From: Exiguobacterium sp. J17977
Lineage (GTDB): Bacteria; Bacillota; Bacilli; Exiguobacteriales; Exiguobacteriaceae
Direction: 5' to 3'
DNA: 64,000 bases
NCBI RefSeq assembly: GCF_018616375.1
Contig: NZ_JAEQBB010000005.1
Coordinates: 62,001-126,000, forward strand
Part shown: positions 21,456-23,825 of the stretch, piece after piece
Layout of the letters: the number at the start of each line of letters is the position of its first letter
Numbering within the stretch: the first letter of the stretch is position 1
The notes under the pieces: model-generated
The model's input: only the letters and a program-made list of their open reading frames with translations
What the model was told of the DNA's origin: nothing
Databases searched by the model: none
Program-made: the position numbers and the translations under genes

Positions 21456-23366
21456 TCATTCGCCTCGTTCGGCCCGTTGTCGCGCCCGAATCTCTTTCTC
21501 GACGCGACGGAGCGCCTTCTTCGAACCGCGGGCAAAGTCGTGGGCTTCTTTCCGGTCCCGGTAATCGACGAATAACGTTTCCAGGTCATAACCAGCTGGA
21601 TACAAGTCGAGCGCTTTCGCCTCGCGTCGAACTCGACGGAGCGGGTGCTCACTGAAGACACCGTCGACATACACGGTGACTTGGCGCAACGATTCGTCCA
21701 TCGCATAGACGAGACCAACTTGATCCGTCTCGAGCAGGCGGACCCGGTCACCTTTCGCTAGCATTTGGTCAGGTTCGACGACAGGACGGACGACTTCTTG
21801 TGTCAGGCGCGTCGCATCAAGGAGCGACTGGTCATACGTCTTGTCGTGCATATAGCGGGCCGCCTGCTTCAAAATCGATTCGGGCAATTTCATTTTCCGG
21901 GCAATGAACAAGGCGTTGCTGTCGCCGGACTGCCCAATCAACAGCCGATACTTCGGTTCGAGCGTGTCCGGGTCGAACTGCATGGCCGCGTTCATGAAGT
22001 CCGGATGCGTCTCCGAATACGCTTTGATTTCCCCGTAATGGGTCGAGGCGACGACGAGACAGCCGCGCTTGTATGCCTCTTCTAAAATCGCGATGGCGAG
22101 GGCAGCTCCCTCGTTCGGCTCCGTCCCGCTTCCGATTTCATCGAATAATAGTAATGATCGCTTCCCTGCCTTCTGCATGATGCTCGCCACGTTATGCATG
22201 TGGGCCGAGAACGTGCTGAGCGCCGACCCCATATCCTGGTTGTCCCCGATGTCGACGAATACGTCGTCAAACGTCGAGATGTCTGTGTCCGGATGGGCCG
22301 GGATATGAAGTCCGCTCATCGTCATCAAACTGAGCAGACCGATCGTCTTCAAGACGACCGTCTTCCCGCCGGCGTTCGGTCCGGTGATAATCAGACCGCG
22401 GTACGTGTCCCCGAGCGAGAAGTCGAGCGGGACCGCCCGTTCGAGGAGCGGATGGCGGACTTGTTTCAAACGGATGTTTCCGACACCGTTCACGCGCGGG
22501 GCGATGCCGTCGATGGCTTGGCTATACTTCCCTTTCGCGAACACCATGTCGTATTGGGCGATGACGTCGAGTGTCGCCTCGATGGTCGGCAACGCCTCCG
22601 CCACCATGCCGGTGAGTGTGGCGAGCACTTGATAGATTTCGACCGCTTCCTCTGTCCGTTTGACGACGAGTTCCGCGTTCAGCTTCGCCACCGCTTCCGG
22701 TTCGATGAACACGGTCGTGCCGCGGCTCGACGTGTCGACGATTGTCCCGGCGACTTTGTGCTTATACGAAGCTTTGATTGGAATCGTGAATCGGTCTTGT
22801 TTCTTCGTCACAAAGCCGTCTTGAATCGCTTCCCGGTTCGCAGCGCTCTTTAAGAACTTGCTCAATCGCTCCTCAATCCGTCCTTCGAGAATGTCGATTT
22901 GTTTGCGGACTCGTTTCAACTCTTTGGACGCCTCGTCGACGACACGTCCCCCGCGAATCGATTGGATAATATCTTCCTCGATATTGCGCCACTCGCTCAT
23001 CTCTCCGGCGTAAAGGGATAACAGCGGTGCAAAGAACGCCTGCTCGGCCATGAACCGCTTCAGTTTCCGGGCACCCCGGAAAAATTCGGCGACGGCTTCG
23101 AGTTCGCTCGCCTCGAGTTGGAGGCCCCGGCTGATTTTACCGATGAGCGGTTCCATATCGGATACCCCGATAAAGGGAACGTGTGACGTCGCGTCAAGAA
23201 TCGCGCGTGCTTCCGACGTCTCTTGGAGCCGTTTTTTCACCGTTTGCAAATGGCTCGTCGGACGCTGGTTTCGCAACAAATTGCGTCCGAATCCGCTGAT
23301 GCAGTAGCGTTCAACGTGTTGAATCAAGTCGTTATATTGTAGTTTGTCTAATGTTTGTTCATTCAT
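21456..23366 (-). CDS. MutS2-type ATPase paralog without Smr domain
   Basis: The 636-aa protein has the MutS2 core and clamp helices (about residues 1-300), the ATPase domain with Walker A GPNAGGKT (330-337), Walker B LLLFDEIGSGT (406-416) and STHYGEIK, then a KOW-like beta module (about 536-580: AKGDRVRLLETDQVGLV). Standard MutS2 is about 780 aa and ends with an Smr nuclease domain; here the protein stops after a short basic helix. MutS2 of B. subtilis acts on collided ribosomes, so a ribosome-linked role is possible and is supported by the unusual leader. AAGGAGA precedes ATG 23366. Confidence 0.88.
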   Translation of the reverse strand: MNEQTLDKLQYNDLIQHVERYCISGFGRNLLRNQRPTSHLQTVKKRLQETSEARAILDATSHVPFIGVSDMEPLIGKISRGLQLEASELEAVAEFFRGARKLKRFMAEQAFFAPLLSLYAGEMSEWRNIEEDIIQSIRGGRVVDEASKELKRVRKQIDILEGRIEERLSKFLKSAANREAIQDGFVTKKQDRFTIPIKASYKHKVAGTIVDTSSRGTTVFIEPEAVAKLNAELVVKRTEEAVEIYQVLATLTGMVAEALPTIEATLDVIAQYDMVFAKGKYSQAIDGIAPRVNGVGNIRLKQVRHPLLERAVPLDFSLGDTYRGLIITGPNAGGKTVVLKTIGLLSLMTMSGLHIPAHPDTDISTFDDVFVDIGDNQDMGSALSTFSAHMHNVASIMQKAGKRSLLLFDEIGSGTEPNEGAALAIAILEEAYKRGCLVVASTHYGEIKAYSETHPDFMNAAMQFDPDTLEPKYRLLIGQSGDSNALFIARKMKLPESILKQAARYMHDKTYDQSLLDATRLTQEVVRPVVEPDQMLAKGDRVRLLETDQVGLVYAMDESLRQVTVYVDGVFSEHPLRRVRREAKALDLYPAGYDLETLFVDYRDRKEAHDFARGSKKALRRVEKEIRARQRAERGE

Positions 23367-23412
23367 GATGGAGTCTCCTTATTTTATGATGGAGATACCG
23401 CGCAAACAAAAA

Positions 23413-23436
23413 GCGTCGGCCGATGACGACCAACGC
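23413..23436 (-). terminator. Intrinsic terminator-like hairpin in the MutS2-paralog leader
   Basis: A 10-bp stem with two G-T wobbles and loop TCAT is followed on the minus strand by CTTTTT-free of other structure (T-run 23412-23408). It lies 47 bases before the start codon. Confidence 0.6.
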
Positions 23437-23536
23437 AAAAAGACAGACCGGTGTCTGGCAGTTTATGAAGGGCGGTATCTGTAACAGAACATGATGGCAT
23501 GACAAAAAGACGTGTCATCCAACATTTTTCAGTTCG

Positions 23537-23566
23537 TTAGGCAGATACAACCTCACTCATTAACAT
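23537..23566 (-). CDS. Putative leader peptide, 9 aa, upstream of the MutS2 paralog
   Basis: The ORF encodes MLMSEVVSA then TAA. AGAAAGGTG lies just upstream: 4 bases from ATG 23566 and 10 from the in-frame ATG 23560. It begins about 24 bases after the predicted transcription start and precedes the hairpin series, the usual position of a leader peptide in translational-stalling attenuation. Too short for codon statistics. Confidence 0.4.
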   Translation of the reverse strand: MLMSEVVSA

Positions 23567-23596
23567 GCAACACCTTTCTCATTCAGTTTCGCCCTA

Positions 23597-23625
23597 ACTA
23601 TACAACAGATTTTCGAAGAAGTAAA
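23597..23625 (-). promoter_or_regulatory. Predicted promoter of the MutS2-paralog leader
   Basis: TTTACT (23625-23620) and TATAGT (23602-23597) on the minus strand, with a 17-bp spacer. Confidence 0.65.
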
Positions 23626-23683: not shown

Positions 23684-23707
23684 GAGGGTGACGAAACGAA
23701 TAATGAT

Positions 23708-23737
23708 CACATGTGACTGATTCGATCAGGCATGGGG
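23708..23737 (+). promoter_or_regulatory. GlcT-type RAT in the PTS operon leader
   Basis: The core TGACTGATTCGATCAGGCAT closely follows the ptsG RAT of Bacillus as I remember it, and differs from the two LicT RATs of this window. It overlaps the 5' arm of the following terminator. Confidence 0.8.
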
Positions 23738-23790
23738 TAAGACGAAAGGCTCACGCCACCCGTCTATACTCCATGCCTGTTTTGTTTTTT
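23727..23790 (+). terminator. Attenuator terminator of the PTS operon
   Basis: CAGGCATGG (23727-23735) pairs with CCATGCCTG (23771-23779), with an inner GACG/CGTC stem, followed by TTTTGTTTTTT. GlcT bound to the RAT would block it. Confidence 0.9.
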
Positions 23791-23825
23791 CACAATCATT
23801 TTTCAAGCGAAAGGATGATTTGAAT

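Follow-up and report, generated by a model that had tools for sequence, protein, structure and literature searches.

A conserved upstream open reading frame and a candidate ribosome-responsive attenuator precede a MutS2 paralog lacking the Smr domain in Exiguobacterium and other Bacillales

Attenuators in which a short upstream open reading frame (uORF) governs the gene behind it are already known, and four papers describe systems to which the present one can be compared. In the vmlR leader of Bacillus subtilis, ahead of an ABCF resistance gene, a three-codon uORF (MIN) lies within an anti-antiterminator stem and is accompanied by a middle hairpin, an intrinsic terminator, a hairpin that sequesters the Shine-Dalgarno (SD) sequence and an alternative pairing that frees it (PMC9226507). 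The hflXr gene of Listeria (lmo0762, rli80), which encodes a drug-induced relative of the ribosome-splitting GTPase HflX and occurs alongside another copy of that factor, is under ribosome-mediated transcription attenuation through a 14-residue uORF with the RLR macrolide motif (PMC6310831). The candidate attenuator uORFC-6-1, with an Arg-Leu-Arg peptide, stands ahead of the ribosome-rescue gene hflX in Bacillales (PMC8632094), and the drug-induced cplR of C. difficile has a short uORF (MRI), a terminator and SD sequestration, the SD being held within the terminator stem itself (PMC10201436). Here we analyse a leader of about 225 nucleotides (nt) that lies on the minus strand between a promoter-like site and the gene for a MutS2 paralog in a 64,000-nt stretch of Exiguobacterium sp. 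J17977 (contig NZ_JAEQBB010000005.1, positions 62,001 to 126,000; the whole stretch is called the window below). An attenuator of the vmlR/ermC type, operated by ribosomes, very probably controls this paralog, which lacks the Smr domain. Our confidence is high that the leader is a ribosome-responsive attenuator and moderate that the protein behind it acts in resistance or rescue.

The leader in the window has the wiring of vmlR; it resembles hflXr in serving a paralog of a ribosome-splitting factor that coexists with another copy, uORFC-6-1 in being a candidate uORF attenuator ahead of a ribosome-rescue gene, and cplR in combining a short uORF with a terminator and SD sequestration. It differs in its peptide, of seven codons and commonly of the form (M/V)SxVxSx, and in its gene, which belongs to the MutS2 family; the likeness to vmlR is one of layout, not of leader sequence. 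The original prediction, made from the letters alone, had compared the layout to attenuators of ribosome-protection genes and read it as a ribosome-sensing attenuator; the comparison with vmlR bears out the former, and the analysis below supports the latter at the level of sequence. Such attenuators have been described before, but our searches of the open-licence literature found none acting on a MutS2-family gene, and neither the RNA element nor the two families of peptides described below. The peptides MSAVGSK, VSAVGSK and MSEVVSA were absent from it, AVGSK occurring in one unrelated paper, and the string "mutS" is absent from the main text of PMC8632094. No title on a MutS2 leader of this sort appeared in the open-licence literature on MutS2 with ribosome, paralog, antibiotic or lincomycin, nor, for broader topics, among the matches listed, an absence that is no proof.

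The argument turns on three short strands within the leader, placed as follows.

23597..23625, minus strand: promoter-like site TTTACT-17-TATAGT (9/12 matches); TATAGT is invariant in 14/14 Exiguobacterium leaders
23571..23577, minus strand: SD AAAGGTG of the uORF
23537..23566, minus strand: uORF, nine codons (MLMSEVVSA) from 23566 or seven (MSEVVSA) from 23560, with TAA at 23539..23537
23542..23548, minus strand: strand 1, GTATCTG, within the uORF; pairs with strand 2; equivalent stem in 43 relatives
23499..23518, minus strand: hairpin ATGACA...TGTCAT, inside the 1:2 stem (free fold)
23472..23481, minus strand: strand 2 (CAGATACCGC), partner of strand 1 or strand 3
23437..23457, minus strand: T1, weak terminator-like hairpin (23444..23457) with U-run; 5 base pairs (bp), doubtful
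23408..23436, minus strand: T2, strong intrinsic terminator (hairpin 23413..23436); 10 bp, 7 of them G-C, then TTTTTGTTTG; same hairpin in 13 Exiguobacterium relatives
23393..23401, minus strand: strand 3 (GCGGTATCT), partner of strand 2
23391..23395, minus strand: UCUCC, overlapping the end of strand 3 and able to pair with the SD of the paralog
23375..23380, minus strand: SD AAGGAG of the MutS2 paralog
21456..23366, minus strand: MutS2 paralog gene, 636 amino acids; core/clamp and ATPase domains, predicted beta-barrel C-domain, no Smr

Much of this layout had been anticipated. The predicted promoter and first hairpin were located, and so was a perfect 9-bp long-range pair, AGATACCGC (23472..23480) with GCGGTATCT, which encloses the terminators and ends 12 nt before AAGGAG. 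The proposed nine-codon reading frame with its own SD exists, but the part common to other genera is the seven-codon one; of the two GC-rich hairpins with T-runs, T2 stands and T1 is doubtful. The pairing of strand 1 with CAGATAC of strand 2 (23475..23481) had been missed. Since strand 2 pairs with both strand 1 and strand 3, the pairings 1:2 and 2:3 are mutually exclusive, and since the enclosing 9-bp pair is possible only once the terminators have been transcribed, it may act on translation, by freeing the SD, rather than on termination. The leader of the window folds at -75.1 kcal/mol (z -4.75), a value equalled by 0/200 shuffles, and no second copy was found in its genome. T1 as a functional terminator is unsupported, its 5' arm sitting in an upstream stem in the free fold. 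There this arm (CAGACACC; T1 at 23444-23457) pairs with GGUGU in the SD region of the uORF (23571-23577), so the long-range fold may also tune translation of the uORF.

The uORF is conserved well beyond Exiguobacterium. From 140 loci found, we took the 80 best, all named orthologs from Bacillales and including many close relatives: 13 from Exiguobacterium and 67 from Bacillus, Priestia, Lysinibacillus, Oceanobacillus, Paenibacillus, Sporosarcina, Peribacillus and others. A uORF of 6-9 codons with an fMet-Ser start (a start codon followed by a Ser codon) and an SD precedes 78/80, compared with 1.6% of block shuffles and 0/80 reverse strands; the rule was written after the motif had been seen, and 78/80 is thus no blind test. 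Both ATGs and MSEVVSA-stop are present in 14/14 Exiguobacterium leaders (alignment A3). The strict pattern (M/V)S-x-V-x-(S/T)-x-stop fits 59/80 loci, the 13 from Exiguobacterium and 46 others, among which VSAVGSK (18), VSAVVSK (9) and VSAVGSN (5) are commonest; ten relatives (Peribacillus, Psychrobacillus and others) carry a uORF of the type MSxVG(I/M)(N/S), such as MSGVGIN or MSEVGMN. Altered peptides occur in 10 of the 78 (L071, L078, L082, L087, L092, L099, L101, L103, L113 and L122), and L085 falls outside the rule with VSAVVSK behind an SD that does not fit it. Beyond the 80, VSV-stop was read at L021, and at L040 a frame that starts with TTG and ends in SLVVSSK; L039, a cut locus, was left out of the uORF reading, and its genome has the element by the covariance model described below.

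A second clade of short MutS2 proteins (L028, L044 and L047-L054) has a different seven-codon uORF, xxxxVLN-stop, in 10/11 rows, L046 being the exception; this count has no shuffle control of its own. Within these uORFs GTTCTTAAC pairs with a downstream GTTAAGAAC in 10/10 leaders read, 8 of them at p<=0.05. At 7 canonical mutS2 loci neither kind of uORF was found (0/7 under the 6-9-codon rule), L027 having MSFA-stop far upstream. The leader therefore tracks the paralogs without Smr, not mutS2 as such.

The leader was tied to this one gene in the genomes searched. A covariance model of the domain from uORF to strand 2, built from 28 of the 43 leaders of alignment A2 (see below) and run in Infernal with stricter filters, placed the element in 9/398 Bacilli genomes, always upstream of the paralog by coordinates, together with one antisense echo; it missed 5 other genomes with a paralog at least 45% identical (G033, G038, G040, G094, G131). 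A pattern search for the uORF matched 8/398 genomes, in 5 of them directly upstream of the paralog by coordinates. The 3 remaining matches, considered as leaders of other genes, lack a correctly placed start codon as well as a GATACC within the following 200 nt, and appear to be chance matches.

The original prediction had proposed looking for covariation in the stems of relatives, and this was found for the hairpin over the uORF but not for 2:3 within the Bacillus group. Its comparative ground for refutation, that relatives would keep neither stems nor reading frame, did not hold, given the uORF at 78/80 loci and the covariation of the hairpin over it. Alignment A2 holds 43 of 56 A-type (Bacillus-type) leaders, omitting 7 longer than 420 nt, L137 (418 nt) and five with eight-codon uORFs (L078, L082, L092, L099, L101). 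The 1:2 hairpin is paired in 92.1% of cells, against 44-48% when the strands are slid, and has 11 pairs with double changes; 0/500 shuffles reach any of five measures. Ten of these pairs lie in its inner part (helices 3-5), and one is the last base of the uORF stop, which changes from TAG to TAA in 4 rows with its partner changing too. Pairing 2:3 is formed in 92.8% of cells, against 36-50% slid. Its strands are AGATACCGC/GCGGTATCT in Exiguobacterium and GAAGATACCTAC/GTAGGTATCTTC in Bacillus, where two adjacent pairs differ on both sides, and we read the pairing as apparently maintained between the groups. In single sequences (p<=0.05) a 2:3 helix is significant in 11/13 other Exiguobacterium leaders (the remaining two at 0.066) and 43/56 A-type leaders, and in 0/10 Peribacillus-type and 0/10 VLN leaders; for 1:2, a stem interrupted by bulges, the corresponding counts are 0/13, 1/56, 0/10 and 8/10, mostly not significant. 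The case for the 1:2 stem rests on the A2 covariation, the whole-leader fold and the masking tests described next.

The main terminator is paired in 99.7% of A2 cells, and a hairpin of -7 kcal/mol or below with a U-run lies between uORF and gene in 79/79 leaders scanned. GGUAUC, in its loop and 5' arm, is complementary to strand 2 in 94.2% of cells, against 6-57% slid, with one double change that is matched by 18/500 shuffles.

We mimicked a ribosome stalled near codon 3 by barring positions -14 to +22 relative to the uORF from pairing, with a control mask for comparison. Across the 43 A2 leaders, the probability of pairing 1:2 fell from 0.93 to 0.00 and that of 2:3 rose from 0.01 to 0.67 (control 0.19), exceeding 0.5 in 31 masked, 0 free and 8 control-masked leaders; the mean unpaired fraction of the SD rose from 0.14 to 0.47 (control 0.17). 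The 14 Exiguobacterium leaders behaved in the same direction, 2:3 rising from 0.00 to 0.68 (9/14 above 0.5; control 0.00) and the unpaired SD from 0.23 to 0.39. In A2 transcripts ending just past the terminator GGUAUC, strand 2 paired with the terminator at a probability of 0.79 when masked, 0.00 when free, 0.04 under the control mask and 0.38 when the start region alone was masked; values above 0.3 were reached by 39, 0, 1 and 21 leaders, respectively.

Taken as a mechanism, these pairings would work as follows. With the uORF fully translated or untranslated, strand 1 would pair with strand 2 as an anti-antiterminator, RNA polymerase would halt at the terminator, and in any transcripts that read through, the strand 3 region would mask the SD of the paralog. 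If a ribosome stalled within the uORF, the likeliest cause being a drug that targets the peptidyl-transferase centre, it would cover strand 1; the released strand 2 would pair with the 5' arm of the terminator and delay it, as predicted in Bacillus-type leaders, and would next pair with strand 3, freeing the SD. A ribosome with its P site at any of codons 1-7 would reach strand 1, which fits the stall position.

Several observations weigh against this scheme. The covariance model misses the Exiguobacterium form of the leader, which must therefore be regarded as a divergent version, tied to the others by peptide, layout and gene and not by model score. In L087, L103 and L113 one additional base shifts the frame of the uORF, so the peptide is not strictly kept; no recognisable uORF was found at L109 and no comparable one before the short paralogs L043 and L045. 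Double changes are absent from the core of strand 1, where 15/43 A2 rows are missing one pair. The missing covariation of 2:3 inside the Bacillus group we attribute to strands that are too invariant. Pairing of strand 3 with the SD is possible in 90.0% of cells without covariation, and a 2-column slide scores 93.2%, which makes that comparison uninformative. The leader of the window itself switches only partially and is among the weaker rows, 2:3 reaching 0.37 and the unpaired SD rising from 0.17 to 0.30. By a second measure of SD exposure (79 leaders), a rise above 0.2 is seen in 26/56 A-type leaders (control mask 8), 5/13 Exiguobacterium leaders (control 0) and 0/10 of the Peribacillus type. 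At equilibrium the main terminator hairpin still forms with the uORF masked, and in A2 the antiterminator pairing is lost once the 3' arm of the terminator emerges. Lastly, strand 2 pairs only weakly with T2 in the 3 Exiguobacterium leaders examined (at most 0.16), where no clear antiterminator is seen.

Antitermination at equilibrium is thus rejected, which leaves room for a kinetic form alone, perhaps assisted by pausing of the polymerase, an effect reported for vmlR (PMC9226507). Only longer, extended versions of the terminator fell by 0.2-0.3 under the uORF mask, in L110, L119, L120 and L123, and a second hairpin was lost in L102. For the window, the weak pairing of strand 2 with T2 means that translational release is better supported than antitermination. 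These results give substance to the strongest competing explanation, a purely translational attenuator of the ermC type in which a stall frees the SD through 2:3 and the terminator either damps expression without being regulated or marks where a separate small RNA ends. It would account for a main terminator that ignores the mask at equilibrium while 2:3 and SD exposure respond, and for the Exiguobacterium leaders without a clear antiterminator. We nevertheless consider it the less likely account, although one to be taken seriously, given that GGUAUC is conserved in the terminator, is complementary to strand 2 and pairs with it only under the uORF mask; plain terminator loops need no conservation.

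The protein under this control is a MutS2 relative, as had been predicted from its translation: it matches the NCBIfam mutS2 model at E 3.2e-175 over residues 2-512 and PF00488 (MutS_V ATPase) at 6.5e-36 with intact Walker motifs, a match to MutS III staying below threshold in the Pfam scan. GPNAGGKT and DEIGSGT are invariant across 21 aligned rows, and the orthologs are 631-638 amino acids long (n=30 read). Pfam scans of the window's protein and 3 orthologs found no Smr domain. The KOW domain of canonical MutS2 likewise gave no Pfam hit in the paralog, where a five-strand barrel is predicted at 540-582 with a predicted local distance difference test score (pLDDT) of about 85; the predicted structure is mediocre overall (mean pLDDT 74, predicted template modelling score 0.61), with poor stretches in the ATPase region. 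In place of Smr, the C-terminus (window 21456-21760) carries a conserved helical tail (LYP-YDL--LF, RK--HD--RGSKKA), for which no convincing Pfam match was found. The same genome encodes a canonical MutS2 of 784 amino acids with Smr on another contig; the MutS2 of B. subtilis is also called YshD.

An unrooted tree of 54 proteins sets the 35 rows of the window's group apart from 8 rows of canonical MutS2 on a separate branch (100/100), with 11 other short paralogs joining in between. The paralog was found at E<=1e-150 in 19/19 Exiguobacterium genomes examined and in 1/19 of the sister genus. This sole sister-genus copy, L020 (G033:C5:45540-47438), has an in-frame TGA and TAG and is perhaps a decaying or mis-sequenced gene; its leader, read by eye, appears intact, with a MSGVVSA uORF and the strands. 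The tree is at odds with the genera, two Priestia groups, two Metabacillus rows and two Cytobacillus rows each being scattered, which hints at horizontal transfer, as with resistance genes. A search of a plasmid collection returned 16 records, every one below 60% identity.

By sequence and by fold, the solved structures closest to the paralog are of MutS2, the best profile match in the PDB being B. subtilis MutS2 (8qpp, 7qv3), seen in 7qv3 bound to a collided disome. In PMC10897456, B. subtilis MutS2 is described as splitting stalled ribosomes in an ATP-driven manner, and its Walker B mutant as erythromycin-sensitive, Smr mutants being only modestly so. By analogy with HflXr and with the ATPase activity of MutS2, the product is most likely an antibiotic-induced ATPase that would split or rescue ribosomes without need of the Smr collision sensor and would be to MutS2 what HflXr is to HflX. 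Membership of the MutS family, and the title of the matched NCBIfam model, "endonuclease MutS2", could suggest instead that the regulator is read correctly and that the protein is an anti-recombination or DNA-repair factor. We find this improbable, as the best profile match is a protein known on ribosomes, regulation by translating ribosomes suits a target in translation, and MutS2 itself, according to the same paper on B. subtilis MutS2 (PMC10897456), is without the mismatch domains of MutS.

Still less probable is control by amino-acid starvation or a T-box-like device in place of drug sensing. Biosynthetic attenuators share the layout of the leader, but the uORF mixes S, V, G, K and N with no run of one regulatory codon, neither the window nor any of 10 relatives matched an Rfam family at its gathering score, and the controlled gene is not biosynthetic. 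An ordinary long leader with stems and reading frame by chance can be dismissed: terminator-like sites (6 found versus 2.8 expected) and promoter-like sites (4 versus 2.7 in 2.9 kb, both strands) do occur by chance in the region, but conservation and covariation extend over many genera, and we count conservation as having already refuted it.

With ribosome-mediated attenuation by drug stalling as the preferred explanation, the fMet-Ser start would suit drugs that act on the first peptide bonds and depend little on sequence context in arresting the ribosome, as has been proposed for MIN, MR[I/M] and MAGN uORFs (PMC10201436), and the frame-shifted uORFs agree with such a drug. A chloramphenicol-like drug would be suited as well, Ser2 taking the penultimate place once codon 3 occupies the P site; these drugs favour penultimate Ala and, less so, Ser or Thr (PMC11832420).

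Divergent from the leader, on the plus strand, lie genes read by eye as phosphotransferase system (PTS) IIA, a BglG-type antiterminator and PTS IIBC. They are preceded at 23700-23810 by a stem and U-run, AGGCATGG...CCATGCCT GTTTTGTTTTTT, possibly an antitermination site of the RAT type.

The leader described here links a family of ribosome-collision proteins with the kind of regulation known from inducible resistance genes. We consider the balance even as to whether MutS2 proteins without Smr form a new and widespread class of inducible rescue or resistance ATPases in Bacilli, acting on drug-stalled ribosomes without a collision sensor and under at least two dedicated families of seven-codon attenuators, (M/V)SxVxSx-stop and xxxxVLN-stop, whose peptides perhaps define undescribed drug-stalling contexts. 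If so, MutS2 would be a further ribosome factor, after HflX and ABCF, to have a drug-induced paralog. An intrinsic gene for resistance or rescue, so far uncounted, would then be present in many soil Bacilli, and new sensors for peptidyl-transferase inhibitors would be at hand in the conserved peptides.
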